A stretch of DNA of 64,000 nt from Geosiphon pyriformis. Lineage: Eukaryota > Glomeromycota > Glomeromycetes > Archaeosporales > Geosiphonaceae. This document shows positions 4,201 through 59,252 of the stretch, piece after piece; the stretch's first letter is position 1, and the number at the start of each line of letters is the position of its first letter. The notes below the pieces were generated by a model. The model ran no database searches. It saw only the letters and a program-made list of their open reading frames with translations, and had not been told where the DNA came from. The stretch is taken from contig JAAOMT010000436.1 in NCBI GenBank assembly GCA_016748015.1, forward strand, positions 2,129,037 to 2,193,036, given 5' to 3'. Made by a program: the position numbers and the translations under genes.

Positions 4201-5080
4201 TTTACTGTTGGCCAATATGTGTAAACACTTTCTGGTTGCTGAAGGTACTGCTGTTTCTGGTAATGCTCATCATTTTGTCCAGGATATTTTTTGGTCTGTT
4301 TGTTGTGCTTATTGGGAAGCTGGCCCTAGCTGCAATGTGGTTCTAAATGTGATGGTTGGTTGTATGGACTGGGTTACTACTGTAAGAGTGTGACATCCTG
4401 ATTCTTATATGCTCGCTGGTTTCACTAGTGACAAGTCTTTGACATTCTGCTCTTATATGATGAAAGCTATGCACAGGAAATTGCCGGTGGCAGTCAGAAA
4501 GAGGCTGTATAATAGATGTTACTCTGATGTGCTGTGTCTGTTGTGTGGTGGTGTGGAGTTCTCTGATCATGCTTTTACTTGTGTTCATGAGTCTGACATT
4601 CGCAATGAGATCTTGGCTGAGGCTTCTGTTTGTTGATCTACTGTGGCTGGTGTTTTTAATTGTTTTTCATCTATTGTGTTATGAGTACTGTCTCAATGTT
4701 CCATTGATGTTGGGTTGTATGCTTTGGTATGTAAAGAGTTTGTGCTGGATGAGTGGCTTAGGGAGGCTTGTTGTGTTGTTAATGACCAAAAATTGGCTGT
4801 TGCTCGGATTGTTAATTTTGTAAGATTTATTGTTGAGTTGCATTGTGCTAGAGTGTAATTGGTGAGATCTAACCATTGGGTAATGATAGAAAAGGCTGGT
4901 TTGGTTTGGGATGGTGGTGTTGTTTCTGGGCTTTTTCGTGATGTGTCTTCTTTGTTTTCTGATGGTGTTGTTAGGTTGCTTGGTATGACTAAGTCTTTTG
5001 CTGTTAGCTTTGGTTATCAAAAGCCATGTAGTTTCTTCTTTGGTCTGAGGGGTGGTGTACAAGTTATTATAGGTGTGTAG
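1217..5080 (+). pseudogene. LINE-A ORF2 remnant: RT, RNase H, zinc motif
   Basis: One reading frame covers the whole length with about 14 in-frame stops and no frameshift that I can see. In order: the linker region; RT block with SDGKTAGLSG near 1945; PIALIE near 2140; RT catalytic box reading FVDNTIW near 2695, where the second Asp is replaced by Asn, so it should be inactive; then YLGIFL near 2903. RNase H follows with VYTDGSLKNAG near 3796, the Glu block replaced by MAKLQT near 3917, and VKGHSRIPGNVRAD near 4129. A CX2C-X7-HX3C motif (CLLCGGVEFSDHAFTC) lies near 4534. Nearly every stop sits where other copies have Trp or Gln. The natural stop is the TAG at 5078. Confidence 0.9.
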
Positions 5081-5219
5081 TGTTGTCTTGACTGGCCTGA
5101 ATGGCTAGTCATGTATAGTAAGCACATGAATCATGTTTAGTTTGAGCCTCTTAGTTTGGCTCTATGTACTAGATAGTGATTGGGCTTCACTCGTTAAATC
5201 TTTTAATAAAAAAAAAAAA
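5078..5219 (+). repeat. Shared LINE 3' tail, copy 1 (stem-loop plus A-rich end)
   Basis: The tail begins with the ORF2 stop TAG. A 9-bp stem pairs TGACTGGCC (5089-5097) with GGCTAGTCA (5103-5111) around a 5-nt loop, with one G-U pair. A second short stem, GAGCC with GGCTC, lies near 5144-5161. The tail ends CTCGTTAAA and then A-rich DNA. The same layout occurs at eight other element ends in this window. Confidence 0.85.
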
Positions 5220-5634
5220 TTAAGATTTATTAAAATTTAATAATTTTTTTTTATAATAATGTTAAATATGTATTGTTTTATAATAGTATTAATTATTTTT
5301 TTTTGTAACTTTTTAAAATATTAATTGGGTATTTTTTTTATCTAATTAATTATTAATATTTTTATGATTAAAAATAATTTTTTAATTTTTTAAAAAAAAT
5401 AATATATAATTAAACAATTTTATAATATATTATTAAATTGTTTTTTCAATTAATTAATTTTTTACTTAATATATTATAAAAAAAACTTATTTTTTTTTTC
5501 CTTTCAAATTTTTCAAAAAGTATTTTTTTGAAAAAGAAGTTTTTGTTTTTTATTTTTTCCTGTTAATTTCTTATAATATTTTTCAAACAAATAATCTCTT
5601 TGTAATAAACTTGATAGCTGCTTTAGGTAGCAAT

Positions 5635-7478
5635 ATGTTGAAAAAAAAAGTATCTAAGAGTGCTTTACAAGATCTTGTTGAAGGTTTTTTTTTTCTAGAA
5701 AAATAAGGTTTTAGTTGGCAATATCAAGTATTTTGACAATGAAAAAGATATATTTTTGGTCAAATTTGTTGTTGGCAGTAGTATATATTCAGATAAGAAC
5801 AGTATATTTGGTAATAATAAAGATAATGATATGTTTTTAGATAATAATAGTGGCTCTCTCTTCAATTTAGCAGCAAATACTTTTAAGACAAAAAAAAAGA
5901 CAAATATTGATTTAGAATATTGTTCTCTTTTTGGTTCTATTAATTATGATATAAATAAAGATGGTAGGTCTCTTCTTTTTCCCCTCAACATCTCTTTGGA
6001 GAACAGGTAGATTAATCTTAAAATTGTGAAAACTCATGTTAAAATACCAGTCAAAAAATTCTTTGTCTTAGACATTAATTTTTTAGCAATAAAAGGCAAA
6101 TCTATGACAGTAAAAACTCAGTTTATCAAGAAGTTATTTTCAATAATCAATGGTTTTGGGGGGGCCACTACCCCCTTAAAATTTGAAGGAATTATCTGAT
6201 CAATATTTACTTCTAAAGAAAGCTGCATTATTGGTTAAAAATAAGGATATTAAAGTAAATAGCAATTTCAAGAGACAAAAAATCAGGTCGGATTAGGCTG
6301 TGATTATTAAAAAAATTCTCATGAACACACCAAAAGAGATAATTGTTGTCACAGTAGCCAAGTATGATCAAATAATGTTTATCAAGTTGTAATTAGTTGG
6401 GCTGTAGCAAAAAACTGTGGTAGAATTTGCCAAATCAGATTAGACTAATTGGTTGGTCTCAAAATGGTTATTTCTAATCAGGAAAAATTCTGTGCATGTA
6501 GTCAAGACTGTAAAAGATTGTAAAACTTGGATATCTAAGAATCAGTTTAGAGCACTTTTGTTTATCTTGTTTATGGAAACAACAGCTTATAATCTAAGCA
6601 CTTTGTTGAAAGAGACTGGTGAGAAAACTAGTATTATAAATTATTCTCTGAAAACTGATAATAGAATTTATTATGCTGTGATTGGCTTTGGCTCTAATAA
6701 GAAATTGGATTCTGTTTTTTGCACAGAGCTGATTTTTGATAGAGTAAAGCTCTCTTGGGCTAGATTGAATCTGGTTTGTTGTAAAAAATATGAGTGTTTT
6801 GGATATTCTGCTTTTGAGTATAATACATCAGATGTATCTGTTCTATTATTTACTAAAAGACCCTATAAAAAAGCTGCTTTTAAAGAAAATTACTTTCAAC
6901 TTACCAAGTTGTACAAAAAGAAAAATGTTTTAATTTCTTATTCTGCTGTTTTTGGTGGCAAATTTTGGGCCCAAATGGTCTCATTTGCTGGTTTTTCTGG
7001 TAATACTCACTTCAGTTTTGGTTCTGGTTCTTTTATTTCTGGTGTTTTAGATTCAGGTAGTAGTATTTCTTCTATTTCAACTGATATCTCATCTTTAAGT
7101 GGTTGTTTGGTCTCTTTGAAATGCTTCTTGAAGCTTTTAACAGATCAGGTTTTTGGTTTAGTGTGTAAACTCAATAATATAAAATTGGTATCTTTGACTT
7201 CTCTCTTTTCCTCTTATGTTTTGGCTATTTCAATGGCTGTCAAGTTAGATCCAGGTTTGAATATGATTTTGGATGGTCCTAAATTGATGCTTCCATCTTT
7301 TTTTCTTGTTTCCTCTAGTGTCTCAGCTTTGGATCCAAGTAGTTTAAAAGTTTTAACTACTAAGATAGGATGTTTGGAATCGAAATTGGTGGCTCTTAAA
7401 GCCTCTGTTGGTTCAGTTCTGGTGAAATTAAATCAATTGTGTACTGGTCTGGGTCTTTTGGTATCTTTTTTCAATTAA
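5635..7478 (+). pseudogene. LINE-B ORF1 (RRM-like, CCHC-type nucleic-acid-binding protein)
   Basis: The start ATG at 5635 is placed by alignment with LINE-I ORF1 (M-S-K-K-K...). Visible parts: a Lys-rich N-terminus; a conserved DINFLAIKGKS-type block near 6070; an RRM-like section broken by stops near 6180-6470; then an open frame from 6453 with RALLFILF near 6550. A knuckle-like CKKYECFGYSAFEY near 6781 has the third ligand changed to Tyr and the last Cys lost. A Ser-rich linker and a Leu-rich helical C-terminus (CLESKLVALKASVGS) end the protein. ORF1 proteins of this kind coat the element RNA. The stop TAA at 7476-7478 overlaps the ORF2 ATG. Several frame breaks upstream of 6453 make it a pseudogene. 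Confidence 0.8.
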
Positions 7479-10400
7479 TGAGTAAATTAGTATAAAAGAT
7501 TGCTACATGTAATGTTTGGAGTATTAATGTCTCTGTTAAGCAGGAAGACATTATTTGCTGACATAAAAATTTTGGAAATATGGTTTCAATTGTTATGGAA
7601 ATGAAGTTAAAATTTAGCATTAGGCCATAAATTATGAACAAGTTTAATGGAATGAAAATTTTTTCATCTGGTTTGGACAAAAAGTTTCTTGGTACTAAGA
7701 TAACAATTATTATAAACAATTTTGTTGTGTATCATGTTTTTAAGGTTAAGAAAGTTTCTGGTTAAGTTATTTTGGTGTGGCTTTTTATCAAGAGCAAGTT
7801 TTTAGTTTTAATTCTAGGTTTATATGCTGGTGCTTTTGCTGAGATTAGATTTAGTCTTGCTTTAAAAGTCAATTTTTTTATAGTTAAAGCAGTCAACTCT
7901 AGTAGTTTCATGATTGTGAGTAAGGATTTCAATAAAAATAGATCTAAAAAAAGTGTGAGTTTTAGATTTTGCTTGGATTTGGGTCTGGTTAATTTGTTTA
8001 GTGGACATCCTTTAGTTAAGACTTTTACTTAAAACAATTTTAGAGGTGCTAAAAAGGTTATTGACTTCATTTTCATGAACCAGAGTCTGACATCTATTGT
8101 TACTGATTATGGGATTAATTCTGTTTCTGATTTCTTTGATACTAATTACAAAGCTGTTTTAATTGCATTTGGTTTGGGTGGTCTTCTGGATATTCATTTT
8201 GGTATAGAGCATAAGCAGGCAAATAGAGATAAATAAAGATTTAAGATTAAAGATACTAGTGCTAACAAGTGGTCCCAGTTCAAAGAAAGCTCTTTGGACA
8301 AATTCTGTAGATTGTAGCTTTGATTTAATAGTGCAAGAGATAATAATAATTTAGATACTATATGGAATATTTTAAGAGATGTTGTGATCTGTTCTATTGA
8401 TAAGGTGTTTTTTAAGCTGTGATTCAATAAAATTGACTGTTCTAAGAATAAGCTTTTGTCAAGGTTTTTCAAGCTAGAGTTGTTGATATTAAAACTCATG
8501 AAAAGTATAGATTTAGGTTAGTGTTTAAATGCCATTTACTTTCTTGATATTTGGTTTACTATTAACATAGAAGAAATGGTCAAAGTACATATAATGTTTG
8601 ATAATAGTGTAAAAATAGAGATAATTCAGGTTTATTTGTTAAAAGTCAAAAAGAGTTATTGAAAGTCCAAATATTATGAATTTAGAGTTGTCAGAGATAA
8701 TTCAATTAGGAAAGCTATAAATAAACAAATAGAAAACTTTTAAAATTAATCTTTTCAGAAAGTTGTTCTTGATCATTTAGTTGTAAATAATGAATTGATC
8801 TTGAAGCCAAGTGAAGTCAAATCTATGATTAACACAATTATGGAAAGATAAACAAGGAAGTGTGCTGTGTTTAGTGTGTAGTCCAAATATTGGTATAATT
8901 AATATGCTCCTCTAAATTATATAAATAATAATGTTTTTATAGAAGTTATGTGTATTATCAAATTTAATAAGTTTTTTTGTGCTGTTGGGAACCTATCTAA
9001 TGACAAAGCTGCTGGTTTTTTAGGTATCCCTAATGAGCTTTGGAAACATGATAATGAATGAGTTTTGGCTGGTTTATTGGATATATTCAATATGTATCTA
9101 ATATTGAGTTTGGTTCTCATACAATAAAAACAAGCTTAGGTTTTCATAATACCAAAGTTTTATGACTGGAAAAGAACTTTTACCAATACCAAACCAATAG
9201 TTTTGATTGAGACAGCCCAGAAGATTTTGTCAAAAATTTTTTCAGACAGAATTTTTTTGGTTTACAATAGATACAATGTCTTATATAACAACAATTTTTC
9301 TGTTTTTAAAAGCATGTTTACACAAACTCCAATTTTTGCTATTGGTTTATTAATAGAAAATGCATTGGAGAAAGACAGAGAGCTGTAGTTGGTTCTTCAA
9401 GATATGTAGAAGATATATGATTTAGTTGGATGATCTCACTTGTTTAACAGCTTAAGTAGAATTAAGATATGCTTTTGTTTTATTAAGTTTTTTTGTAATA
9501 TATACAACAATAGAACCAACTGGGTAATAACAAATTTTGGGCTTACTAATAAGTACATTGTTCATGATGGTTTGGACCAAAAAGAAGTGTTTTTACTATT
9601 GCTATGAAGAATTTTTTATAATATATTGCTTTGTGAGATTAAAAGGCATAAACAACTGTTTGGCTACAGAATAAGTTCAAAGTTTTTCACAAAGACTGGC
9701 AGGGCTAATTTTGGGAATAGCAAAACTTTTTTTTTTGCTGCAGGTGCCTTTGTTGATAACACTATTTGGATCGGAAATTGCATAACAGCTATACAATACA
9801 TTTTAGATATTGTTAGTAAGTTTTTTTCAATCAATAATATTTTGATCAATATAAACAAAACTGTAATCATTCTTATTAATCAAGATGTTAAGAAGGCTTT
9901 ATTGTTTATTAATGATTTGAAAATCTCAATAGCCAAAAAAGATAAATCTCATAGATATTTGGGTATTTTTCTGTTGACTGAAAGTTTTTCTAAGTCTAGT
10001 TTAGCCAAAGCTCATTTAGATGTTAGGTTCTTTTCCAATGTGGTTTTAAGAAAGGCCATTACTGAAAAGCAGTTTTTGTATTTGGTGTTTGCTGTTTTAT
10101 AGCCAATTATCAGTTATAAGTTGCAGTTTAGTTGTGCTTTAAAGAGTGTATATAAGAAATAAAACAAAATATTAAGAAAAGAGTTGGGACTTAAGGCTAA
10201 TTTGCCTAAAGATTTTTTGAATAAAGCATTATATTACTCCAAGTTGTATGGCTTAAGAACTTTTGAACAAGTGCTATCTGAAAACCTAATGGCTGGCTTG
10301 ATTAATTTTGCTAATGCTAATAGAATCTTTAGCAATTTGTTTGAGCATAGAGCTATGGATTTACAGGCTACTAGCTAAATGTTCCAATACTTTCTCTAAT

Positions 10401-12132
10401 TTCCAGTTATTTTGTCAATGAATTTTATAAATTGTTTTCTAACAGATGTGACATGCACTCTTACTTTTTGCAACCTGTTTCTTAATAATATACTGCTTGA
10501 TGTCTTTTGGGCTAAAAAAAATGTTATAATCATAGAGGTACTGGATTTGAACTGTTATTTGAACATAGCTAAGTTTTTTAAGAAATATGGCATTGTTTTT
10601 ATGAACTAGCTTCTGGACTGTTATGGCATGTGTGTTATGTAAAACACTTTTTATAAGTAAAAAAGACTGGATTTCAAAAGTCTAATTTCTGCTTGGTTCA
10701 GTTTATTGATTAAGTTTATTAATAATAGTAGTTTAATAAGTAATAAGTTATTAAGTTCTCATCTTACTTCTTTTGATCACTCTTGTAACTTTGGTTTTGT
10801 TCACAAATGTCTATTGAATTCTGGGCTGCATTCTGTGAAAGTTTTTATAAATGGCTTTGTAAAAAATTTGGGTTTAGTTGGTGCTCATGGTAGTGCTGCT
10901 GCTTATTTTCTTAATGCCAATATTAGTATTGAGATCAGAGTTAAGAATTTGCTGTCTTTGATTTTAGTGAAGCTACAAACCATTGCTCTTGCTTTAGAAT
11001 ACATGCTTACTTTTAGTTCAGTTACCTTATTTACAGATAACCAAACTTTATTGGACATTTACAACTTCAATAAGAGTATGTCTGGTCCCAATTTTTATGA
11101 TAAGTACTGGATTAAAAAGAAGTATATTTGTTATGTTATTTCAAATAGAGATTTATCTGTTTTTGGAAGAAAGTTAAGAGTCATTTTGGCATTGTTAGAA
11201 ATAAACATACTGATTTTTATATTAACACTACAACTGCTTCTAGTTCCATGTTGTCTCTTGACATATTACATTATTTTCTTAATATTAAAGACAAACTTAT
11301 CTCTAAAAATGTTTATTATTTTGTCAAGTGACTGTTTGGAACTGTTAATTTTGCTGGATGGGAGACCAAGTGTGCTAATGATGTCTGGAATACAAGCAGT
11401 GGTTTTGACTTTGATATGAATAAAACTTTTAGTGTTTGACATCCTAATGGCAAGATTTATTCTGGCTATATCAGCACATTATTGGTGACATTTTGATTCT
11501 ATTTTATAAAAGCTCTGTATTGCTGCTTATTGGTGGCCAAAAAGAAAAAATTATACAATCCCAGTTATCCAAATATGGTTTGCATCTGATGTAATATAGT
11601 AAAGGACTCTAATTACATATTTGTATATACATATAATAGTAGTATCAGAACAGATTTGTTGTCAAATGTAATCCTAAAATGAAGTAATATAGTAGATGTC
11701 TCTGCTAATAGTAGTGTAATTTCTAGGTCTTTATATAAAGCTAAGATATCAGCTAATTTATACATGGTTCTGGCTAAGAGCTTTGTGTTAAAAAGCTGAA
11801 TAATTAACATGATGTGCTATTTAGGCACTGGATTTAATAGTGATGAAATTGTTGTCAATATGATTCATGATCTGGTTAAAGATCACAAATCTGCTATTTG
11901 GCTGCCTACAGCCAAGTTAAAATCTTTTTCTAAGAAACATAATTTTATATTACATAATAGTTTTGTTTTTCTCTCAGTGTCTAGTTTGTTATTCTTATAA
12001 TATTCTGTTGTGATTCAATGTTTTAGTATTAGATTTGGTATTCATATTTGTTTTGATTTGTATTTTGATTTGTCCAAATTAGATTTTGGTTTTTTGCATG
12101 GAATTCTGTTTATGAATAAGTTAGATGTATAA
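7478..12132 (+). pseudogene. LINE-B ORF2: APE endonuclease, RT, RNase H
   Basis: ORF2 starts at the ATG within TAATG (7476-7480). The endonuclease part keeps remnants of the N-terminal block (ATCNV near 7503), the catalytic Glu region (MEMKLK near 7597) and a decayed GDFN motif (SKDFNKN near 7918). RT follows with NDKAAGFLGIPNELWK near 9000, PKFYDWKRTFTNTKPI near 9150 and a FVDNTIWIGN box near 9750 in which Asp has become Asn, as in LINE-A. The RNase H region starts near 10843 (FINGFVKNLG; the first catalytic Asp is lost) with LFTDNQTLLD near 11028. Multiple stops and some frameshifts occur. The TAA at 12130-12132 is the conserved tail stop. Confidence 0.82.
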
Positions 12133-12250
12133 TGTTATCTTAATTGGTTCAAGTAATTGGTCATGTATAGAAAGTGCATAAGCTGTATTTAATTTAGAAT
12201 CTTGTTTGGTTTTATGTATTTAGATAACAGTTGGACTGCACTTGTTAAAT
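12130..12250 (+). repeat. Shared LINE 3' tail, copy 2
   Basis: The tail begins at the ORF2 stop TAA. The stem is weaker: TAATTGGTT (12141-12149) pairs with AATTGGTCA (12155-12163), 8 of 9 positions counting four G-U pairs. The distal part (TTGGACTGCACTTGTTAAA) matches the other copies. The A-rich end is not distinct from the flanking AT DNA. Confidence 0.75.
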
Positions 12251-13079
12251 ATTTATTTTGAGCTATTTAAATATAATATCTAAATATTTAATTGTTTTTA
12301 TTATTATTAATATATTAAACTATAAAAAATATTTTGCTTATATAAACAATTAAAATACAATTATTTTAAATTATTTTACTTATTTATTTAATAATATTAT
12401 TTGTATTTAACTTAATTTTAGAAATCTAAAACTTTTTAAAAACCAATAATTAAGCAAATATTTTTTTATTAACTTTATTATTTAAAATATTTATGTTTTT
12501 ATTATTATTATTTTTATATTTTGTTTTAAGCTTGATGATTTTTTTAAAAATTTTTATTTTTTTCTTAACTTTTTTAATTTAATATATAAAACAATAAAAA
12601 TTTTAATCAATCTAATAATTAATAAAACCAAAACACTAGTAAACTTAAGTAATAAAGCCAATTTAATTAATTTAAATTCTAAAAAAACCAATTTAATATC
12701 AATTACAAAAATAATATTACTAATATTATTAATAAATTTTTATATTTTTTAATGTAAAAATTATAATATATATTAAAAAAATTACTATTAAAATCATGTA
12801 AAAAAAGCTTATATTATTATATTTAATCAATAAAATTAGCTAGTAAATAGAAAACAAATAATTAATAATTAGTTTAATTACAACAAAAAAATATAATACA
12901 ATTTAATTATTTAATTAAATTAAATATAAATTTTTTTTGAAAAACTAAAAAACACCAATAAAAATTAAAATATATAATTTAATAATAATAAAGTTTATTA
13001 GATTTTAAAAAATTTTACATATCTTTAATTATATATTTTAATATTTTGATCCTATAATTATTATATTAAAATTTAAAAA
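12251..13079. other. AT-rich spacer without genes
   Basis: Almost pure A/T, with short runs such as TTATTATTAA and no supported ORF, RNA or terminal repeat. It separates LINE-B from LINE-C. It could be a fully decayed transposon, but nothing recognisable remains. Confidence 0.6.
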
Positions 13080-16085: not shown

Positions 16086-16111
16086 GTTAAGATTTTAATT
16101 AAACCAAACTG

Positions 16112-43500: not shown

Positions 43501-45187
43501 TAAATACAACACATGTTTTACTTTTTGCAATCTGTTTTTGAATGGCAATTTGCCTAATGTATTTTAGACTAAAAATAGCATTGCAATTTTAGATGTATTG
43601 GATTTGAATAATTATATAAGTGTAGTGGAGTTTTTTAGAAAGTTTGGCATTATTTTTGTGGACCAGTTTTTGGATTGTTGTACTACATGCTTCATGTAAA
43701 ACACTTTTTACAGATAGAAAAGACTGAATCTTAAAGGTTTAATTTCTGGCTAGTTCTGTTTACTGGTCAAGTTTATTGAGGACAGTAGTTTAGTGAATAA
43801 TAAGATATTGGTTTTTTGTTTTACTTTTATAGACTATCTTTGTAATTTAGATTATGTTAGTAGATATTTGTTAAATTCTGGGTCAAATAACATAAGTGTT
43901 TACACAAATAGTTTTGTTAAGTCTGAAATTAATAGATGCTTATAAAAGTATTATTGTTTATTTTTTAGATGTTGATATAAGTATTAGAGTTAAGATAAAT
44001 GATTTGCTGTTCTTAACTTTGGTAGAATTGCAGACCATTGCTTTTACTTTAGATTGTGTATCTGTTTCTTGTTCTGTTATTTTGTTTATAGACAGCCAGA
44101 TATTATTAAATATGTGCTGTTTTAACAAGTGTGTATTTGGTTCTGATTTTTGCAGTAAATACTGGATTAAAAAAGAACACATTTGCCAAGTCATTTTAAG
44201 AAAAAGTTTGTCAATTGCTTGAAGTAAGATCAAGAATTATTTTGGTGTTGTCAAGAATAAATGTGCTGATTTTTATATCAATACTGTCATTACTTCTAAG
44301 TTTATTCTATCTTTTTGAGTGTTATGCTATTTCCTTAATGTTAAAGGCAAATTTATCTTTGGAAATACTTATTACTTTGTTAAAAATTTATTCAATATAG
44401 TTAATTTTATTGATTAGAAATCCAAATATTTCAATAATATTATAAATACAAATATTGATATTAGTTTTGATATAATTAAAACTTTTAGTGTTTAATATTC
44501 TAATAACAAAATCTGCTTTAACTATACTAATTTGTTATTAGTAGTACTTTAGTTTTATTTTATAAAAGCATTTTATTGTTATCTGTTTGTGGCTAAAAAA
44601 AAGAGATTGTATAATCCAAAGTATTTAAGTATGGCTTGCATCTAATATAGAATAGTAAAAAACTCTAATTACTTGTTTTTGTATATACATAATAGTAATG
44701 TTAAGATAGAATTATTATTAAACACTGCCTTAGAATAGAATGAATTATTGAGTGCTTTTGCTAAAAAAAATGTAATTGTTTGGTCTCTGTATAAAACTAA
44801 GTTGTCTGTTAATTTGTATATATTATTGGTTAAAGACTTTGTATTAAAAAATTAAGTGGCTAATACAGTATGCCATTTGGACACTGGATTTAATAGTGAT
44901 ATATTGGTTGACAAATTGGTTTGTGGTCTTGTTAAGAGTCACAAATTTATTATTTAACTGTCAACTGCTAAGTTAAAATTTTATTACAAAAAGTATAATT
45001 TTTTGCCACATAATAGATTTAATATTTTTTGGTTTTTGGCTTGTTATCTTTGTGGTTTTTTGAATTGATTTACAGTTTTGGTGTTAGATTAAGTATTTAA
45101 ATTTGCTTTGAATTATATTTTTGTTTATTCAAATTAAGTTTTGGTTTTTTGAAAGATGTTTTTTTAATAAGTAATTTAAGTATATAA
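40522..45187 (+). pseudogene. LINE-G ORF2 remnant
   Basis: Blocks in order: AIYNVQNINVSAKQKDII near 40545 (endonuclease start); ISGNFNENSS near 40960 (decayed GDFN); HKTVLFSIEL near 41188; RT LPNKKAAGLNGILNKL near 42068; a FVDNTI-like box near 42825 followed by a stop; MAKKDKFHKYLEIFLLT near 42990; and an RNase H part with VELQTIAF near 44020 and LFIDSQILLN near 44085. More than 30 stops and some frame breaks occur. The natural end is the TAA at 45185-45187. Confidence 0.72.
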
Positions 45188-45320
45188 TATTGTTTTAATT
45201 GGTTTAAATAGCTAATTATATATAGAAAAAGCATAAATTATGTTTAATTTAAAATCTTGTTTGATTTTATGTCTTTAGATAATAATTAGACTGTATTTAT
45301 AAAACATTAATAAAAAAAAT
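45185..45320 (+). repeat. Shared LINE 3' tail, copy 6
   Basis: The stem TAATTGGTT (45196-45204) pairs with AGCTAATTA (45210-45218), 9 of 9 with two G-U pairs, even though the copy is very AT-decayed. The distal part reads TTAGATAATAATTAGACTG and ends AAAACATTAATAAAAAAAA. Confidence 0.82.
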
Positions 45321-45494
45321 AAATTTTTTTTTTTGATTTTGTTAAGTTATTTATATTAAATATTAATTTTTTAATTATTATTAATAAGAATTTTTTTAAA
45401 AATTAAAAGTTATTAAAAATTGTTTTATTAAGTAAATAATTTTTATTTTTTATAATTTTTTTATATTTATATTTATATATATTTTTTTTATTAC

Positions 45495-45617
45495 AGTTTA
45501 ATGAGTACAATCCAATCACTACCTAGTATACAGAATCAAAACAATAGACCTCAGCTAAACATAATTCATGTATTTACTACATGTGACTAGTCACTTGGAC
45601 TAATCAAAGCAACACTA
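45495..45617 (-). repeat. Shared LINE 3' tail, copy 7
   Basis: On the RNA strand TGATTAGTC (from 45606 to 45598) pairs with GACTAGTCA (from 45592 to 45584), 9 of 9 with one G-U pair, around a 5-nt loop. The distal part reads TAGGTAGTGATTGGATTG and ends CTCATTAAA at about 45495. Confidence 0.85.
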
Positions 45618-48600: not shown

Positions 48601-49179
48601 CAAGTCCTTCTCCACAAAACTGGAACTATGCCCACCTTTAGGCATAAATTTAAGAGATCTAACAAGCTTCTGAAAATAATCTTACCACAATGTTTCCACA
48701 ATTCATTAGGAATACCACTAAAACCAGCAGTTTTTCCATCTGGTAAATGTTTGACAACTTAAAAAAAACTCACTAAAACTAATAACATCTATAATATCAG
48801 AGAAAGTATTATCATCCACATATTGTAAAGAAACATACTGACGAGCCCAAGGAACAGAGAAGGGTGTAAATACTGACCATTTTCTGGTCTATTCTTCTAT
48901 TATCATATTAACTTTGGACTTAACATCACTAGGATTTAAAACAAGTTTATTATCTACCACCAAATAGTCAAGAACCACCTTGTAAAAAGGCTTATCCAAA
49001 ATACTTCTGATCATACAGTCTTTGTTCATACAAAAATTTTCTATCCTCTTATCAATAACATGTCTAATTGTAGCAGTCTTAGCAGCTTTGGTTTCATGCA
49101 TTTTGGAACAATAATAACTCTTCTTAAATCTGAACAGACAAACAAAAATTTCCACACTGTTGGTATCATTATTTAACAT
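45615..49179 (-). pseudogene. LINE-H ORF2 remnant: RT, RNase H
   Basis: Minus-strand order: SVEIFVCLFRFKKSYYCSK near 49140; VVDNKLVLNPSDVKSKVN near 48930; RT block HLPDGKTAGFSGIPNELWK near 48730; MIPKPYDWDDVL near 48580; intact FVDDTIWVG near 47990; and PHRYLGIFLSTN near 47790. RNase H has VFTDGSLKGLG near 46900, MAELQAVALVL near 46770, CLDSQAALNA near 46710 and VKRHSDVLGNICADTL near 46540. The zinc motif is partly lost (CLHCGEVEFSDYVFTC, His to Tyr). Several frame breaks (near 47520, 47630 and 46640) and stops are present. The stop TAG is read from 45617 to 45615. Confidence 0.85.
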
Positions 49180-50250: not shown

Positions 50251-50342
50251 TGTTACAGTTGAAACACATAGTTTTTATTAATTATCACATGTATTAGCTA
50301 CTGATGTCATATAATTAACCACCCTATTTTTAGATAGTAATT

Positions 50343-50399
50343 GTTGACCTGATCAATGACATGACTGTTGACCTGATCATTGACCTGATCATTGACCAC
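50343..50399 (+). promoter_or_regulatory. Short repeats upstream of the LTR TATA box
   Basis: TTGACCTGATCA-type units repeat several times just upstream of CTATATAAG. The 5' LTR has one more unit than the 3' LTR. Their placement suggests an enhancer or upstream binding array; the binding factor is unknown. Confidence 0.45.
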
Positions 50400-50408
50400 T
50401 TTAAATAG

Positions 50409-50417
50409 CTATATAAG
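50409..50417 (+). promoter_or_regulatory. Likely LTR core promoter (TATA box)
   Basis: CTATATAAG occurs at the same position in the 3' LTR (57383-57391) and survives partly in the old LTR (TTATATAAG). The position in the first third of the LTR fits a U3 promoter. Confidence 0.6.
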
Positions 50418-50968
50418 TGATGATTCCCTTAGCTGTAGAAAGACATGATCAAAGTAACAAAATAAACAATATTAATTACTTCCTCTCATAATCACTTATT
50501 CCCCTTTCCTTACTTTCAAATATCTACTTGTTGGCATTCACATACCTTATCTTTTCCCCTTCTTGATTTGTATTTGTTAGAATTAGCCTGAGAAGCAATT
50601 GGCTTGCTCTTGTAATTCATTGAATAAAGAAACAATTGAAAAGTATAACAATACCTGTTATTGATTCTAAGAATCACCAAGTTGAAGCATAGAATAATAG
50701 CAGTGGTGTTATCTTGTTGACAATCACAGACTATTCCTCTACCTTCAGATTTAAGAAAAGATTAGCGACTGTGATTTTTATGAGACTGATCACACACATT
50801 GAATTCTTACTTATTCAATTCACTCCCTTATTGTAATTTCTTCTTTGTTTATTTCTATCATCATACAATACTGTTCTCCCTTGCTATTCATTAGCTTGTT
50901 ACTCCAACCCGTAACATAAAAGTGGTGCTCTCTGTGAGGTTGTCAAAATTCACTTATTCTCTCATTGT

Positions 50969-52522
50969 ATGGGTGATTACTCATATTTGCCACAGCAATC
51001 AGAAGAACACTTTGTAGCACACAACAGAAACGACCAAAGTTTCATTGAACTTAATCCTTTGCCCTCCTGCTTGATCTGCTTCCCCCTTGAAAAACAATCA
51101 AGTAGACAATTCCAAGACTTTTGGAACTGGTTCCTGAATGAGCATTCAGCTGAAACCTACACAGCTTATACAACCTATTACTTTGACCAAGCTTATTTTG
51201 AAAATGACTTTGAAGAAAAAAACAACAGTATCAATCAGCTTTTATATTCTGCAACCTTTGAACAACAGCCCCCTGATTTCGAATATCTGAATCATCAAAT
51301 CTACATTTGGATTGCTGCCCATCAAGCAACTGAAACTCTCTTTGAAACAGAAGAAAAAAGCTACCAAACTGCCCCTGTTTTTAATCTTTTATCAAGCGAA
51401 TCAGACTCGTCTACACAAACAGTTACCCCTGAACCAATGGCTAATGACCCCATGCAAGCAAACATTCTGGCCGCCCTCCAAGGTATACAAACTGCTCTAG
51501 GGCAAAGAAACAACACCCCAATATCATTATTTAGAGGTGATGCACAAAATCCAATTGAATGGTTGGATGACTTTGAAAGAGCTGCTACAGCCAATCAATA
51601 TGATGATGAGTACAAGTTCCAAATTGTTGGTGGCTACCTTCAAGGATCCCCTGCTACCTGGTTCTCACAAGAAACAGATGTCAATGCCCAGCAAAGAATT
51701 GTTAGATGGACATCAGCAAATGTGGGAGAAATCAACACTTCTTTTACTACCTGGTTTGAAAACAAGTTCAGAACCCCAATATTAATATCAAAATGGCATA
51801 TGGAATTGGAAAGAAAAACCCAAGGTCCCGGTAAAGTTGTAACCGAATACGTCAAAGCAATCAAAAAGTTAATCAAATGAGTAGACACTGGAAGAAATTG
51901 GACAGAAATCCAGAAAATTCACTCCTTCACAAAAGGATTGAGAACTGATCTATTGTATGCTCTTTGGCCCCTCCTGGCCCTGAAAAATAATCCCACCATG
52001 GTTATGGTCATTGAATTAGCACAAAGAATTGAAGACAACCAAAGGATGCACTTGGGATCCACACTACCAGTTTTTGCTCCTGTTCTTGTCATGGCTCCTG
52101 CCCCTCAAATGGCTGCTACTTCTTTTGCCACTCACACTCAAGATCCAAATGAACAGTTAATAGACAGACTTACAGCAAATCTTGCTTGGTTATTAGAACT
52201 CTTAGCTCAAGCAGTCAGAGAAAATCAGCAACCACAAAGACTCAGATTTGAACCACGCTTCAATCAGTCCCAGCAACCACCTTATCAAAGACAACAAAAT
52301 CGTGGCCCACTTGTATGCTATTGCTGTGGATTAACTAGACACTTTTCAAGAGATTGCAACAATCCTCTACTGCCACCACCAGTCCCCAGAAACAATGATG
52401 CTCAGAACAACAGGATCAACAACAACAATGTGCCCAACCAAAGACCCAATCATGCCAACATCAATTTCTTTGGAGAGGATCCCTTAGTTGAAGCCACTGT
52501 TTATCAGCCTTTAAACTGGTAG
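50969..52522 (+). pseudogene. gypsy gag (capsid and CCHC nucleocapsid)
   Basis: ATG at 50969, about 50 bp after the 5' LTR. An acidic N-terminal part is followed by a capsid-like region (FRGDAQNPIEWLDDFE near 51530; LQGSPATWFSQ near 51640; FTTWFENKFRTP near 51742). One in-frame TGA lies at 51878-51880, likely from CGA or TGG. A Gln/Pro-rich stretch and a nucleocapsid knuckle CYCCGLTRHFSRDC (near 52317; CX2CX4HX4C) follow. The gag frame ends TAG at 52520-52522, four bases after a slippery heptamer. Gag packages the element RNA in virus-like particles. Confidence 0.88.
52510..52516 (+). promoter_or_regulatory. Programmed -1 ribosomal frameshift site (U UUA AAC)
   Basis: In the gag frame the codons are CCT TTA AAC TGG TAG. 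TTTAAAC is the canonical X XXY YYZ slippery heptamer. A -1 slip gives CTG GTA GGT, the start of the open pol frame (LVGAPPKDES...). A 10-bp palindrome AGGTGCACCT follows immediately; whether a stem or pseudoknot forms further downstream is not established. This would set the Gag to Gag-Pol ratio. Confidence 0.75.
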
Positions 52523-55203
52523 GTGCACCTCCAAAGGATGAGAGTGCAAGCCAACCAGAAGAAAACCCTTTTTACGCTTTTAACTTAACTGATAATGACC
52601 ATGACATGGATGAATTAGCAATCAACCCCTCTGAATCCACAAGAAAGAAGAAGAAAGCCAAAGTTGATTTTGTTCTAGACCCCAATAAAGCTTCTACATC
52701 AACTGCTGACAACAATGAGCCTCCAAAAGCCAAAGTTTTCAAGAATCCTCCAAAGTTGGAACCCCCAGAAATAGTACAAAAATCCAGTTCCTATTCTGTT
52801 GTCAAAGACCTTATAGAAACCCCAGCACATATAACCTTTGGCCAATTGATGACCCATCTACAATTCAGAAAAGATCTTCGCAAATTCCTGATTCTAAAAA
52901 AAAAGACACCCAAAACCAACAAATGCCTTTGCCAAGCTGGACTTACTGACAATAGCAATGTCACTCCTCTAATTTGTAAAGCCCAAGTGGCTGGCTATTT
53001 TATCAATTTGATCCTAGACAGTGGATCATCTGTTAGTGTTATTGCCAAACACTTTCTTGAAGCAATTGGCAGAAAAATTAATGAACCATCCACACAACCA
53101 ATAACCAATGTGCATGGTAATAAGAAGAAAGGGCTTGGCATAGCCAAAGCTATTCCTGTTCGCATCAATGACATCAGTATTGAAACTGATATGGAAGTGT
53201 CTGAAGCAAAAGAATACACCATCATTGTTGGCAATGAATGGCTCAAAAAAGCAAAGGCTTTGCTTAATTATGAACTCTGTGAACTAATCATCAAATGTGG
53301 TGAGAAACCCATTGTGGTTAAGTGTCGCCATTGGACAACTCCCCCAGTACTCAAGCAGAGTCCAGAAGAAAATGAATCAGATGAATCAGATGATGAAGAA
53401 AGTAAGGAAGAAGAAAAACAAGAAGAACAAGAAGAAACTGCTGAATTCGTCTATACCATCTTCACTAGCAATGGCAAACCACTAGATAATGTCAAGGCAG
53501 ATAAAAAAGGAATCATTGTCAATGGCAAGCTGATCTGCTGGCCTTATTATAACATGCTTAGAAGAATCTTTGACAGAAAGCCAGGCAAGAAAGCCAAATA
53601 CATTTATTGGTGACATGGTCCTTGTGCCCGGTGCTGGTGCGACAAACCATTGTACTCTTCTAGTAATGAATGCATGTCCTGTCTGATCTATTACAAAGAT
53701 TGAGAACCAATCAGCTTAATACCCTGAGAGGAAATAAAAGAAGTCCAAAAGTCCTTTAAAAACAAACCATCTGAAATCCAATCACTGGTTGTAGAACAAA
53801 GAGAATTCTCTCCAGAAGAATGAAAAGTAGATATTGAAAACCTGCTGGCTAGAAACAGCCCAGTTATCTCAAAAGAAAGTGAACCTCCTGGATGTAAACA
53901 TGTGATACAACACACCATCATCACCAGAGAAACTCACCTCATCTATTTGAAGCCCTATCAATCCAACAGGCACAATGATGAGTTTATAAAAAAGAAAATA
54001 ACCCGAATGAAAACCCTTGGATTCATACAGAAAACCAAGAGTGAATGGACATTCCCAGTTGTAGTAGTATCCAAGAAAGGAGAAACCCTATGCTTTTGTG
54101 TTGACTATTGCCAATTAAATGCCATTACTGAAAAAGACATGTACCCACTTTCCAAGATTGATGCAATGCTAGACCAATTCCATGGTGCCGCTTTCTTTTC
54201 AACCATTGACTTAACTGTTGGATTCTGGCAAGTAGAGATGGATCCAGAAAGCAGAAAAAAAACTGCTTTTATCACCAAGTATGGTACCTACGAATTCACA
54301 GTTATGCCTTTTGGTCTCACAAATGCTTTTCCCACATTTCAACGCTTAATGGACAAAGTATTTGAATCAGTAAAAGAAAACTTTGTTCTAGTCTACTTGG
54401 ACGACATAATGGTATACTCAAAAACCTGGGATGAACACCTTAAACATTTGCAAAAGGTTTTTGACCTCCTTAGAAATGCTGGTCTCAAGATCAATCCAAT
54501 CAAATCATTCTTTGGATGTCAATTCATTTAGTTCCTTGGCCATCTTATTACAAAAGATAGAATCTTCCCTGATCCAGCCAAAATTGAAAAAGTTCAAAAC
54601 ATTAGACAACCAATAAATGTTCATGAACTATGCTTTTTTCTTGGTTTGGCCTCTTATTATCACAAGTTTGTCAAGGATTTCTCTAAAATTGCTGTTCTTC
54701 TCAATCAGCTACTTAGAAAAAACATCAATTATTACTGGGGCACTCATCAACAAAAAGCATTTGAAATTCTGAAGGAAAAACTGGTTACAGAACCCATTCT
54801 CATGCAACCTAATCTGGATCAACCTTTTATCCTCCACACTGATGCATCTGGCTATGGACTTGGTGCTGTTCTTTCCCAAAAAAATGAAGATAACAGAGAA
54901 CATGTCATAGTATATGCCAGTAGAACTCTCACACCAGCAGAAAAGAACTACTCAGTTACTGAGCAGGAATGCTTAAGAGTAGTTTGGGCTACCAGCTACT
55001 GGGACAAATATCTTAAGGGTGTGAAATTTTTGGTGGTAACAGATCACCAAGCTTTGGTTTGGCTACGCAACAAAAGAAACCTGGAACATAAATGGATAAC
55101 TCACTGGATACTCCACTTGGACGAATTCGACTATGACATTCAACACTGCAAAGGAGCTAATCATCAAAACACCAATACTCTCTTCAGACTTACCATCCAG
55201 TGA
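52517..55203 (+). pseudogene. gypsy pol: protease, RT, RNase H
   Basis: Frame -1 relative to gag. Aspartic protease: LDSGSSVSVIAKHF near 53015 (DSGS active site). An acidic Glu/Lys stretch lies near 53370. A Cys-rich stretch lies near 53622. RT: VVSKKGETLCFCVDYCQLN near 54067, FFSTIDLTVGFWQV near 54193, FVLVYLDDIMVYSKT near 54382 (catalytic YLDD). RNase H: LHTDASGYGLGAVLSQ near 54831, ending FRLTIQ. Stops within the single frame at 53611, 53701, 53725, 53821 and 54529 fit Trp/Arg/Gln losses. No frameshift until about 55205. Confidence 0.9.
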
Positions 55204-55262
55204 TGGTAAAACCCTCTCAAACCAAACCAACTTAATTATTTGTAACTTTCTCACAAACAAAC

Positions 55263-56509
55263 ATGATAATGGACTTGGACAACTACTCTGCTTTAATGAA
55301 ATTTTTGAGTAAAAGACAATACCTGCCAGACTATAATCGACAGCAAAGAGAACATTTGCACAAACAATCAAATTTTTATTTGATTTGCCAGAACCAGTTA
55401 TATAAAAGAAATAGAAAAAATCCTGACCGCCCCCAGAGAGTCATTAGATTTGAAGAAAGAGAAATTGTGATCTACAATATGTACATTAATCCATTAGCTG
55501 AACACTTTGGAAAAACAAAAACAATTCAGAAAACTTTAGCTCGCTATTATTGGCTACTTTGGAAAAAGACATTGCTGAATATATCAAAATCTGTGATATC
55601 TGCCAAAGAAGAGAAAAACCCAATTGCAAAGAAGATATCCATCCAATCTCTGTTGGTCAACCATTTGATAAAATTGGTATAGATGTTGTTGGACTTTTAA
55701 CAGTAACTCCTGATGGCAATAGATACATTATTATAGCTACCAACTATCTTACAAAGTCGGTAGAAGCAAGAGCCACCCCAGATCAAACAGCAGTCTCAAT
55801 TGCCAATTTCATTTATGAAGATATTATCTGTCGCCACAGCTGCCCCAAAGAACTTTTATCTGATAGAGAAAGAGCTTTTCTCAGTACACTGGTTGAAGAA
55901 CTTTGCAAAAAAATGGGAATACATCATAAACTCTCTTCCTCTTATCACCCCCAAACAAATGGCCTAGTAGAACGTTTCAATAGAACACTATGTGAAACCT
56001 TAGCCAAAATCAGTGAAAAAACCAACCTATGGGACAAAGTATTGCCTTCAGCCTTGTTTGCTTACAGAACTGTGAATCATGACATAACAAGTTATAAACC
56101 CTTTTATCTGCTCTATGGACGAATGGCAACTCTACCAATAGAAACAATACCTTTTGAAGAAATAACAATAGGAGATTACAAGGACATTTTGCAAAGAAGA
56201 CTTGGTACCATTCTTGACTCATTAGTAGAAGCACGGATAATTGCCTTTGAAAAAATAAAACAGATTCAAGAGAAGCTCAAAAAGAAAAAGATCTATAAAA
56301 CACTTTTCTTAAGTGTTGGTGACTTAGTTTTAGAATACCGTTTAGACAAAGACAATGTCTATGGTGATAAATTCTCTAGCTGGTGGAAAGAACCCTTTAT
56401 AGTCAACAAAGTTTTGAACAATGGTTCTTATATCTTACAAGATTAATATAGAACAATATTCAGTGATTGCCCTGTTCATGGCACGCAACTCAAGAAATAT
56501 CACAAATGA
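55263..56509 (+). pseudogene. gypsy integrase (frameshifted)
   Basis: The N-terminal zinc region (AEHFGKTKTIQKTLARYYW) reads in one frame to about 55555. A single-base loss in W(x)TLEKDIAEY moves the rest (CDICQRRE onward) into another frame. The HHCC finger appears to miss its first His. The catalytic core is complete: GIDVVGLL near 55678, LLSDRERAF near 55855, NGLVERFN near 55961, with exactly 35 residues between the second Asp and Glu (D-D35-E). The C-terminal GDLVL...WWKEPFIV...GSYIL module fits the GPY/F domain. The stop TAA at 56444 is probably secondary, and the frame continues to TGA at 56507. Confidence 0.9.
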
Positions 56510-56610
56510 CCTAATTGGTTACCTGTTGTGGTAATACCGATCCAAATAATCAGCAAAAATTAGATATAAATAAATGCACCATTCCCAAAACAGAGGTATC
56601 TTCAATCGAC

Positions 56611-57267
56611 ATGAACAATTATTTCCTGGATCAAAACATTTAAAACGCTTTCTATACTCTCCATAAGTACTGGATCAAGAACTATCCAAATGTTACTCTG
56701 ACTATTGAAAAACAAACCACTATAACAGACAACAGTAGAACTCATACTGTTATTAGACCAAAGAAAACAACTACCAGAAGAGAAAGAATTGGTGGCAAAA
56801 TGGATAAATACCTGCTGGAAAGCATAACAGCAGTGATACTTTCACCTTCCAGCACAATTGGAAAAACAATACAAGAAATCTTGCCCATAGACAAAAACTT
56901 GTCATATGGAAAACAACTAAAACTCTATGGTCATTTTGGTGAAATCATAGAAAACATAAAGCTCATGAAAAAAACAACTTCAGAAATACAAATGGAAATT
57001 TTGGGCATTATACAATTGGATGTCCCAAGAGTTTTGACCATTGCAAGAAGAGCCAGAACTCTTATACAAAGATTTGGTCTCTTGGATACAAAGCTTATTT
57101 CGCCTCAAATACTATATACTCTATCCACAAAAGACTTCAACAAACTAGTTAGTTTTGAGTTAGACAAAACCCTTTACATAGACTATTCCATAAATAGTTT
57201 GATTTCGCCAGAGCTTAATCTCTTTGGAGAGGATGATGTTATAATTGAAACACATAGTTTTTATTAA
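56611..57267 (+). pseudogene. Unrecognised extra ORF between integrase and 3' LTR
   Basis: A reading frame of 218 codons from ATG 56611 has one internal stop (TAA at 56641, fitting CAA to TAA). The main open part starts at ATG 56800 (155 aa). It contains HKYWIKNYPNVTLTIEK, an Arg/Lys-rich patch (RPKKTTTRRERIGGK), and then an Ile/Leu-rich helical part (VPRVLTIARRARTLIQRFG). No membrane segment or signal peptide is visible, so it does not look like an env. It extends about 30 bp into the 3' LTR. Function unknown. Confidence 0.55.
57222..57236 (+). promoter_or_regulatory. Polypurine tract of gypsy element
   Basis: TTGGAGAGGATGA lies directly before the 3' LTR start. Its position and purine richness fit the primer site for plus-strand synthesis. 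The matching primer-binding site after the 5' LTR (50917 onward, TAAAAGTGGTGCTCTC) could not be assigned to a tRNA. Confidence 0.55.
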
Positions 57268-57890
57268 TTATCACATGTATTAGCTACTAATATCATATAA
57301 TTAGCCACCCTATTTTTAGATAGTAATCGTTGACTTGATCAATGACCTAACCATTGACCTGGTTGTTGACCACTTTAGATAGCTATATAAGCGATGATTC
57401 CCTTAGCTGTAGAAAGACATGATCAAAGTAATGAAATAAATAATATCAATTACTTCCTCTCATAATCGCTTATTCTCCTTTCCTTACCTTCAAGTATCTA
57501 CTTGTTGGCATTCACATACCTTATCTTTTCCCCTTCTTGATTTGTATTTGTTAGAATTAGCCTGAGAAGCAATTGGCTTGCTCTTGTAATTCATTGAATA
57601 AAGAAACAATTGAAAAGTACAACAATACCTGTTATTGATTCTAAGAATTGCTGAGTTGAGGCATAGAATAATAGTAGCAGTGTTATCTTGTTAACAATCA
57701 CGGACTATTTTTCTACCTTCAGATTTAAGAAAAGATTAGTGACTGTGATTTTTATGAGACTGATCACACACATTGAATTCCTACTTATTCAATTCGCTCT
57801 CTTATTGTAATTCCTTCTTTGTTTATTTCCATTACCATACAATACTGTTCTTCCTTGCTATCTGTTAGCTTGTTACTCCAACCTGTAACA
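57237..57890 (+). repeat. 3' LTR of gypsy element
   Basis: 654 bp, begins TGTTATAATTG and ends CCTGTAACA. It is collinear with the 5' LTR except for one missing 12-bp unit upstream of the TATA box. CpGs lost in one LTR are kept in the other at several places (AGTGATG against AGCGATG after the TATA box). Confidence 0.95.
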
Positions 57891-58098
57891 ACAGTATAGA
57901 CTATCTTTCTACCTTCAAATTTTTCAGTTATTCTTTGAAAAAACTAACAACTAAGATATTTTATAAGACTAATCTCACACATTAAATTTATATTCATTTA
58001 ATTTACTTTTTAAAGTTGAATTTTTTTTGATTAATTTTATTATCCTACAAATTTGTTTTTTCTTGCTATCTGTTAACTTATTATTCCAAACTATAACA
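57891..58098. mobile_element. Old solo LTR, right part
   Basis: After the duplicated ACAG the old LTR resumes: TATAGACTATCTTTCTACC matches ACGGACTATTTTTCTACC of the intact 3' LTR, and it runs to CCAAACTATAACA at 58098. No internal region of the old element remains outside, so it was a solo LTR before the young insertion. Confidence 0.88.
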
Positions 58099-58447
58099 AT
58101 ATAAACAAATTAAATATGTGTTAACAAAATATAACTTACATAAAAAAAATTTTAATCATATTAAAAAAATGTTAATTTAATTGTTAATTAGTAATAATTA
58201 GTATACTATAATAAGATAGAATTTTTAAATCATAGTTTTATTTACAGTTCAAATTTGTTTGCTTGTAAAAATCTTTTGGATAAATGTTTTTTTTTGGAAA
58301 TTCTTAACTAATACAACTTTGGTCTTTCTTTAATTATTGGTTTTATGTGTTTCTAATATAAATTTATACACAATTTTGTGCAAAAAATTTGTGCTTAAGA
58401 AATAGTTAGAGGAGATTAAAATTTTTCTTAGAAATGTCAATTTTGCC

Positions 58448-58729
58448 ATGGCTGAATTAATTAAATTTGTTCAAAGTTTGGTTGTTAGTTATAGGGAACA
58501 AATTTAAGTACTTAATTTAAAGCTTTATATTAATATAGATTATAAAAATTTGTTAAATAAGAATGGCTTTTTATTTAATATTGTTCACAGTTTTTCTGCT
58601 AAAATCTTAGATAATATTACTTGGTTATTGGAGATTAAAAAAAGTTATGCTATTAGTTTTGATTTTAGAATTAGTTACTTGTTTTTTACAAGCATAATTT
58701 AAAGAGTTTTTGTTAATATAGTTATATAG
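58448..58729 (+). pseudogene. Element J ORF remnant
   Basis: The frame from ATG 58448 (MAELIKFVQSLVVSYREQI) runs to the conserved tail stop TAG at 58727 with two internal TAA codons, the first fitting CAA. The peptide is helical and Leu/Ile/Lys-rich, with no zinc or catalytic motif. The N-terminal part of the parent ORF is missing. Function unknown; by position it resembles the helical C-terminus of the ORF1-only elements. Confidence 0.45.
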
Positions 58730-58860
58730 TATAGCCTTAATTAGTTAAATAACTAATTACATATAGCAAATATGTGAATTATATTTAATTAAAAACTTTA
58801 AATAATTATATTGTATTAGATAGTAATTGGATTTTACTTATAAATACAAATAATTAATAT
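58727..58860 (+). repeat. Shared LINE 3' tail, copy 8
   Basis: The stem TAATTAGTT (58738-58746) pairs perfectly with AACTAATTA (58751-58759) around a 4-nt loop, with no G-U pairs. The distal TATTGTATTAGATAGTAATTGG matches the other tails. Confidence 0.85.
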
Positions 58861-59129
58861 ATATATATATTAAAAATATGATTTTTATTATTTATCTTAT
58901 TGTTTTTGATAATAAAATCTAAATTTAAATTGTAATAGTGCTTTTATTAATTTTTTATTTGGTGTCTTTTTAAATAATAATTTATTTACAAATAATATAT
59001 ATTTTTTATTAATATTGACTTTTTTAGAATTAAAATTAATATATATTAAAAAAAATATAAAGTTTTTTTTAATAAAATTTACAAATTTTATATTTAAATT
59101 GAAGTTTGTTTTTTTATTTTTTTATTACA

Positions 59130-59252
59130 AGTTTTACGAGTAAAGCCCAATTGCTATCTAATACATAGAACCAAACTAAGTAAAACCAACTAAATACAGC
59201 TCATATACAGACTACATGTGGCCAGCCACTCAGGCCAGACAAGACAACACTA
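59130..59252 (-). repeat. Shared LINE 3' tail, copy 9
   Basis: On the RNA strand TGTCTGGCC (from 59241 to 59233) pairs with GGCTGGCCA (from 59227 to 59219), 8 of 9 including two G-U pairs. The distal part reads TAGTTTGGTTCTATGTATT and ends GGGCTTTACTCGTAAAA. Confidence 0.85.

Follow-up and report, generated by a model that had tools for sequence, protein, structure and literature searches.

In the stringent type of LINE (long interspersed nuclear element), as described in PMC4176376, the protein encoded by the second open reading frame (ORF2) must recognise a stem-loop at the 3' end of the element's RNA, and deleting or swapping that stem-loop abolishes retrotransposition. UnaL2 of the eel and ZfL2-1 and ZfL2-2 of the zebrafish likewise have a 3' RNA structure within tails that are common to partner elements, and in pairs of a LINE and a SINE (short interspersed nuclear element) the partner without reverse transcriptase (RT) bears the 3' end of the LINE. 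The mammalian HAL1 (half-L1) is a non-autonomous element that encodes ORF1p only, is described as having several independent origins (PMC5753468) and is thought to be copied in trans (PMC5753468, PMC4161310). In Drosophila, R2 SIDEs (short internally deleted elements) and R2/R1 hybrid SIDEs are reported to combine parts of one LINE with the 3' end of another, and template jumps are reported in vivo (PMC3414825). Here, we analysed a stretch of 64,000 nucleotides ("the window") from contig JAAOMT010000436.1 of the archaeosporalean glomeromycote Geosiphon pyriformis, in which nine element ends carry a common folded 3' tail, and we followed this tail through the genome of 124.7 Mb in 406 contigs. 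The tail stands behind LINEs and also behind protein-coding elements that have ORF1 only.

We consider it likely (probability roughly 0.8) that the tail serves a stringent-type LINE as its 3' recognition RNA, that the ORF1-only elements are HAL1-like partners moved in trans, and that the 3' module is occasionally exchanged. In contrast to the short stem-loop of UnaL2 and ZfL2, the Geosiphon tail of 138 nt is predicted to contain a cloverleaf of ~115 nt that includes the stop codon and that would be the object of recognition. The ORF1-only elements resemble HAL1 in encoding ORF1p only, but their ORF1 is strongly diverged from that of the co-resident LINEs, their folded tail is a defined one, and C-termini are combined with tails in different ways; because the host genome is fungal, without descent from mammalian L1, we describe them as working like HAL1 rather than as members of that group. 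Like SIDEs, as these are portrayed in PMC3414825, they are non-autonomous and would borrow LINE machinery; SIDEs are rare, short and internally deleted, whereas the Geosiphon elements code for protein and number more than a thousand candidate copies. An earlier note, made from the sequence of the window, had named LINE/SINE tail sharing as the precedent, and this is the right one, with the difference that the Geosiphon partners code for protein. A scan of the window for tRNA and Rfam matches found no small-RNA head and nothing else except a sub-threshold histone 3' stem-loop at 32465-32510 (-) (23.5 bits, cut-off 34), which is probably a chance match. Full-text searches of the open-access literature found no published account of the tail or of the ORF1-only family.

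How LINE RTs choose their RNA, and how elements without RT hitchhike on them, is known mainly from animals and from short hairpins. The Geosiphon LINE group provides thousands of natural tail variants, ORF1-only partners with a measurable history and one conflict between body and tail trees, which makes rules of recognition and 3'-module exchange readable from sequence and testable.

A common 3' tail behind LINE and ORF1-only bodies

The earlier note had listed nine ends that share one order of parts, running from a stop codon through a stem-loop and two conserved blocks to CTC(A/G)TTAAA and an A-rich end. All nine tails were found at the positions given, with their parts in that order. The tail is ~138 nt long, opens at the stop codon and closes with the A-rich end, often AATAAAA. 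The E values below are those of a sequence model.

5078 to 5214, plus strand: folded 3' tail, from the TAG stop (E 3.4e-31)
12130 to 12261, plus strand: folded 3' tail (E 3.7e-24)
27402 to 27537, plus strand: folded 3' tail (E 1.3e-26)
31502 to 31638, plus strand: folded 3' tail (E 7e-26); an ORF1-only body precedes 33 of the 40 closest genomic tails
33222 to 33346, plus strand: folded 3' tail with the first hairpin shortened (E 2.8e-22)
45185 to 45320, plus strand: folded 3' tail (E 3.4e-22)
45481 to 45617, minus strand: folded 3' tail (E 1.2e-28)
58727 to 58860, plus strand: folded 3' tail (E 6.3e-20)
59116 to 59252, minus strand: folded 3' tail (E 2e-29)

This sequence-only model, built from the nine window tails, recovers the same nine at E <= 6.3e-20, a match that holds by construction, and detects another 12 (E <= 1e-6) in the 200 kb directly upstream of the window. 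For the 21 tails in these 264 contiguous kb (E <= 1e-6), the upstream content was LINE in 15 cases, ORF1-only in three and unclear in three. Genome-wide, a 14-base core pattern with <=2 mismatches occurs ~10,100 times, compared with ~4,800 times for the reversed control. The bodies that precede the tails in the window are as follows.

1 to 5077, plus strand: LINE ORF2 body of subgroup 1, with its 5' part outside the window (blastp of ORF pieces to other ORF2 bodies)
5244 to 12129, plus strand: LINE body with ORF1 and ORF2, subgroup 2, 5' limit approximate (ORF comparison, tblastn)
20600 to 27401, plus strand: LINE body with ORF1 and ORF2, subgroup 2, 5' limit approximate (ORF comparison, tblastn)
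29361 to 31501, plus strand: ORF1-only element with a ~21 nt leader, a broken frame with a CCHC zinc knuckle and no ORF2 (zf-CCHC 1.6e-4; 5' limit common to four to five other copies)
31970 to 33221, plus strand: second, diverged ORF1-only element, 5' limit approximate (51% over 37 aa to the first, E 6e-10; relative L056/L119)
38436 to 45184, plus strand: decayed LINE body, subgroup 2, 5' limit approximate (ORF comparison, tblastn)
45618 to 49129, minus strand: 5'-truncated LINE ORF2 body, subgroup 1 (ORF comparison, tblastn)
58357 to 58726, plus strand: remnant of a decayed LINE ORF2 C-terminus (33% over 43 aa by tblastn, E 3e-4; peptides)
59253 to 63265, minus strand: internally deleted LINE (from the order in which tblastn matches precede the tail)

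For 52 tails examined (an initial 32 and 20 more), the upstream body was read as LINE in 32 cases, as ORF1-only in 11 and as unclear in nine; the peptide was the sole basis for the LINE call at L007_1409. The bodies fall into two classes, LINE and ORF1-only, and the latter has a fixed architecture, which bears out the claim that protein-coding elements with different bodies have this tail in common. No third class, whether a SINE or another coding body, stood out among the 52 tails, of which the nine unclear ones could hide one. The body at 58727 that had been put forward as a third, unrecognised ORF is instead a decayed C-terminus of LINE ORF2, as indicated by the weak tblastn match, the peptides and a closer relative at L102/L127. 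A SINE identity of the partners was likewise rejected, because their bodies code for an ORF1 of ~700 aa and not for a short non-coding head derived from a small RNA.

A genome search with the LINE RT segment gave 4856 candidates, of which 148 were scored. The copy L134 has long frames: ORF1 (822-2693) is split over two of them, and a frame of 1521 aa for ORF2 contains RVT_1 (4.1e-17) and, above cut-off, RNase_H (1.8e-6). A match to Exo_endo_phos_2 (E 7e-4, 19.8 bits) is below the cut-off of 27.4, and its position fits an N-terminal endonuclease. The solved structures nearest to L134 ORF2 are human LINE-1 ORF2p (3.4e-18) and then R2, and the RT is of the kind found in elements without long terminal repeats (LTRs). 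In the internally deleted LINE at 59253-63265 (-), an ORF1 piece joins late ORF2 directly, the endonuclease and most of the RT are absent, and RNase_H (1.1e-7) is retained at 59998-61311; in contrast to the ORF1-only family, this copy does represent a recent deletion.

The ORF1-only element is ~2.3 kb long and consists of the ~21 nt leader beginning ACTCTTTG, a single ORF of ~700 aa and the tail. The ORF contains RRM and CCHC domains, both above cut-off, and is homologous to LINE ORF1 (26% aa identity over 187 aa, E 2e-23). Searching the genome returned 1299 candidate copies, 150 of them scored at E <= 8e-48. The tail stands directly behind ORF1 in all five long-frame copies. Of 20 copies chosen by their protein alone, from loci spread across the ranking of the candidates, 18 have it there, one has a weak tail and one has none. 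No ORF2 lies between ORF1 and tail in the ORF1-only copies examined. Where the body was located from the tail instead, in the 40-tail comparison noted above, 31 of the 33 tails lie at a distance of 141-151 nt from where the protein match ends; this comparison took in 42 of the 150 protein loci, and the other 108 were checked by eye. The family affects annotation, since at least 120 of 296 matches to the ORF1-only protein have been deposited as ordinary G. pyriformis "hypothetical proteins". Among the 120 matches listed, 76 have one C-terminal type, 25 have another and 19 have neither, and five ORF1-only proteins compared with L032 are roughly 50-88% identical over most of their length and 12-21% identical in the last 120 aa.

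The ratio of nonsynonymous to synonymous substitution (dN/dS) among three ORF1-only subfamilies was 0.39-0.46 between and 0.49-0.81 within subfamilies. A first pass had given 0.42-0.55 between and 0.65-0.78 within groups, after which the frameshifted copies L147, L148, L150 and L154 were dropped and L143 was added to one group. The pattern is one of decay after insertion atop old purifying selection, and this long purifying selection on ORF1 implies that the ORF1-only elements are not merely passive passengers. The ORF1 sample from these elements also shows a strong C>T and G>A bias, very few CpG and no evident CpA preference. Because C>T occurs before A, C, T and G alike, as read from the counts, we rejected repeat-induced point mutation with its usual CpA preference.

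Predicted fold of the tail and tests of selection

Even on the nine window tails, RNAalifold paired the two conserved blocks, GTTTAATTTAG and TAGATAGT-ATTGG, with each other; they are complementary, and their pairing is the longest helix of the tail. A closed cloverleaf was predicted both on 91 non-window tails and on all 120. The set of 120 was assembled from 36 model matches, five of them weak and unused; six tails failed the full-length filter (five among these matches and one from the long-frame ORF1-only copies), a second search contributed 80 matches minus 10 partial ones, which brought the running total to 100, and 20 of 21 matches at the loci picked by protein completed it (L144 was left out). 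The predicted cloverleaf has a closing stem P1, two hairpins P2 and P3 and a long arm P4, with the following columns in the 91-tail alignment.

P1: columns 4-7/116-119, where the last two bases of the stop codon (columns 3-5) and two more pair with CACT near the 3' end, and columns 10-13/110-113, a second segment GYCT/GGGC
P2: columns 14-23/29-37
P3: columns 38-42/51-55
P4: columns 56-67/97-109, with an apical stem at 71-76/86-91

In this prediction, the stop codon side of the closing stem pairs with the region ahead of CTC(A/G)TTAAA, and the A-rich end follows the fold. That the stop codon belongs to P1 is a prediction, and any role for it there is conjecture. The conserved paired stem of the earlier note is real but makes up one hairpin of this larger cloverleaf, of which the pairing of the blocks and the stop codon in the closing stem had been missed. 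The CGTGTG/CACACG stem at 33222 is an indel variant of the first hairpin. For the 120 tails, the RNAalifold energy was -33.1; 60 column shuffles gave -4.3 +/- 2.1, and the complementary strand gave -11.1. When the fold is derived solely from the nine tails of the window and applied to the remaining 111, 89% of cells pair, a figure that drops to 33-39% if the fold is slid by 1-3 columns. Some pairs, for example columns 75-87, swap by transversion (TA 30, AT 24, TG 13, CG 10 and GT 7 among the 91 tails).

Compensatory change in the stem had been presented as strong evidence for a functional RNA. By itself this evidence is weak, because C>T and G>A predominate among the changes in these copies (261 of the 344 in an ORF1 sample of nine copies), and such drift replaces G-C by A-U with no need for selection. 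We compared the 120 tails with a tree-preserving null of 200 simulations that kept the tree, the substitution types per branch and the column rates. Paired cells made up 91.0% of the observed total, versus 69.0 +/- 2.5% in the null (range 62.6-74.6), and 63 double compensations had both changes on the same branch, versus 16.9 +/- 4.2 (range 7-32). Each of the five helices exceeded its highest null value, and single changes that break a pair numbered 195, versus 246 +/- 15. A-C mismatches (200, null 373 +/- 54) were below every one of the 200 null sets. An excess of G-U (968) over A-C (200) was rejected as a sign of RNA, because the null likewise gives 1006 versus 373, so that only the A-C deficit counts. 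The signal was also seen in subsets: the 40 ORF1-only tails alone were 88.9% paired (null 77.8 +/- 2.4%, at most 82.8%), and the 80 other tails were 92.0% paired (null 74.1 +/- 2.1%) with 35 doubles (null 13.7 +/- 3.8). A functional RNA structure in the tail is supported by this tree-aware test, which upholds the earlier proposal together with the RNAalifold prediction and the transfer of the fold from nine to 111 tails.

Apparent tail exchange, proposed mechanism and alternatives

In a tree of bodies (29 rows), L150, L029, L152, L145, L155 and L154 form a clade with support 98/99, within which the five other than L150 group together at 100/97. In a tree of tails (73 rows), L150 falls among the ORF1-only tails, and the other five group with LINE tails (clade support 99/92). 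Forcing the six members of the body clade together in the tails was rejected by the approximately unbiased (AU) test (p = 2.4e-9); the six-row group was taken from the body tree but tested after both trees had been seen. Over the last 30 nt ahead of the stop, the copies with these five tails match their body kin at 76% and the LINEs L063/L068 at 39%, whereas from +46 to +92 of the tail they match L063/L068 at 79-82% and body kin at 46-60%. The first 46 nt of the tail do not discriminate between LINE and body kin, which places the switch in similarity within ~46 nt after the stop. L069 belongs to the other C-terminal type; its tail shares 80-81% identity with the tails of L029 and L145, although its 3' body shares only ~52% with that of the D-type copies compared. 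One ORF1-only lineage appears to carry a LINE-type tail that contradicts its body phylogeny, with the tail apparently exchanged, probably by template switching or recombination near the stop codon. This points to a LINE/ORF1-only retrotransposon system built from interchangeable parts.

In the mechanism that we propose, a large group of LINEs with RT, RNase H and a putative endonuclease has the tail as its 3' untranslated region and most likely as the RNA that its RT recognises. The LINE ORF2 protein would bind the cloverleaf and initiate target-primed reverse transcription from the A-rich end. The ORF1-only elements, which encode no RT and so must be copied in trans by LINEs, would use the shared tail as a handle, and the 3' end would act as a replaceable module, as suggested by the LINE-type tail on one ORF1-only lineage. 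Putative target-site duplications would fit target-primed reverse transcription, with 14 nt at L134, the sole LINE copy examined (2.3% of Markov shuffles are as long), and 13 nt at the ORF1-only copy L029 (0.7% of shuffles are as long). RT binding, trans mobilisation and the mechanism of exchange are steps that we infer. A further idea, which we regard as possible but rather unlikely, is that the stop codon of the last ORF is itself part of the RT-recognition RNA, with P1 closing only after the terminating ribosome leaves. If so, recognition would be gated by translation and would favour RNA that has just been translated. Any ORF ending on this stop could then be plugged onto the tail, giving a modular retroelement system. 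This would account for the stop codon being the place where the shared unit begins and where tails can be exchanged.

Several results weigh against a selected tail that is shared and exchanged. The data are sequences from one species, related alignments underlie the predicted structure, and the same short sequences supplied both tree and null. In the subset of 40 ORF1-only tails, the 15 doubles (null 6.2 +/- 2.5) lie inside the null range of 1-16, and two of the five helices exceed the null maximum while three do not. G-U pairs are not enriched over the tree-preserving null in the 120 tails. Mutual information with average product correction (APC), compared with 100 tree-simulated alignments, gave 0 of 37 structure pairs at E <= 0.05, with null maxima above the observed maximum, so that the statistically supported, R-scape-like covariation that the earlier note had sought in a larger alignment did not emerge. 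Target-site duplications were not convincing in three of five elements examined (L134 and L029 were convincing), and wider tests of ORF1-only tails as one clade were weaker, with p 0.164 (22 rows), 0.03 (40), 0.066 (38) and 0.0185 (37). The generic mutual-information test is negative because subfamily-wide changes swamp pairwise signals, and with no single significant pair the support applies to the structure as a whole; the pairing-directed statistics were adopted after this negative test, and we report both. The negative test and the C>T/G>A bias would suit an unselected structure, in which AT-driving decay mimics compensation by converting G-C to A-U and the shared tail reflects descent only. 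We judge this highly unlikely, since a null with the same substitutions per branch and type falls far short of the data (69.0 versus 91.0% paired; 16.9 versus 63 doubles), the A-C deficit lies outside all null sets and some pairs, such as columns 75-87, change by transversion.

Alternatively, the tail could be an ordinary signal at the mRNA 3' end, for poly(A) addition, stability or termination, with the ORF1-only elements copied by relaxed-type retrotransposition based on poly(A). The A-rich end of every tail agrees with this, RT binding of the tail is itself inferred, and the tail may have a role in stability; however, a strong fold in the very domain that a stringent LINE has to recognise, with repeated sharing and exchange between bodies, is expected of an RT handle, and a poly(A) mechanism would not need the tail to be kept in ORF1-only elements, which makes this alternative improbable. 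A similarly low likelihood attaches to the idea that the conflict between body and tail reflects convergence or poor resolution of a tree of 138-nt tails. Such a tree has few columns, the wider one-clade tests (p 0.02-0.16) are modest and the six-row group was tested with the trees in view, yet that group was defined by bodies rather than tails, its rejection is strong (p 2.4e-9) and identity switches sharply near the stop. Least likely of all, and very improbable, is that the ORF1-only elements arose recently from LINEs by internal deletions that left ORF1 and tail. One such deletion does lie in the window at 59253-63265, and mammalian HAL1 is described as having arisen by this route (PMC5753468), but the ORF1 is just 26% identical to LINE ORF1 over 187 aa, and the family has its own 5' end and its own trees with several subfamilies, between which dN/dS is 0.39-0.46. 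The distant ORF1, the 1299 candidates (150 scored) and the tail in 18 of 20 copies dispose of the recent deletions that the earlier note had allowed for; an ancient deletion origin is likely.

Other features of the window and of tail loci

At one locus, L023:4847-4930 (-), a tail fragment lies ~1.07 kb from the expected end of the preceding LINE ORF2, as if an insertion had occurred near the stop or in the tail. An unrelated interspersed repeat lies upstream of several decayed tails (L117, L118, L025 and window 57973-58102). The window also contains an LTR retrotransposon at 50251-57890, in which two LTR-like repeats, 91% identical over 666 bases, flank broken gag-pol-like frames. An intact host gene at 35306-36598 (+) encodes a MYND zinc finger protein that is 67% identical to a protein of Ambispora leptoticha.

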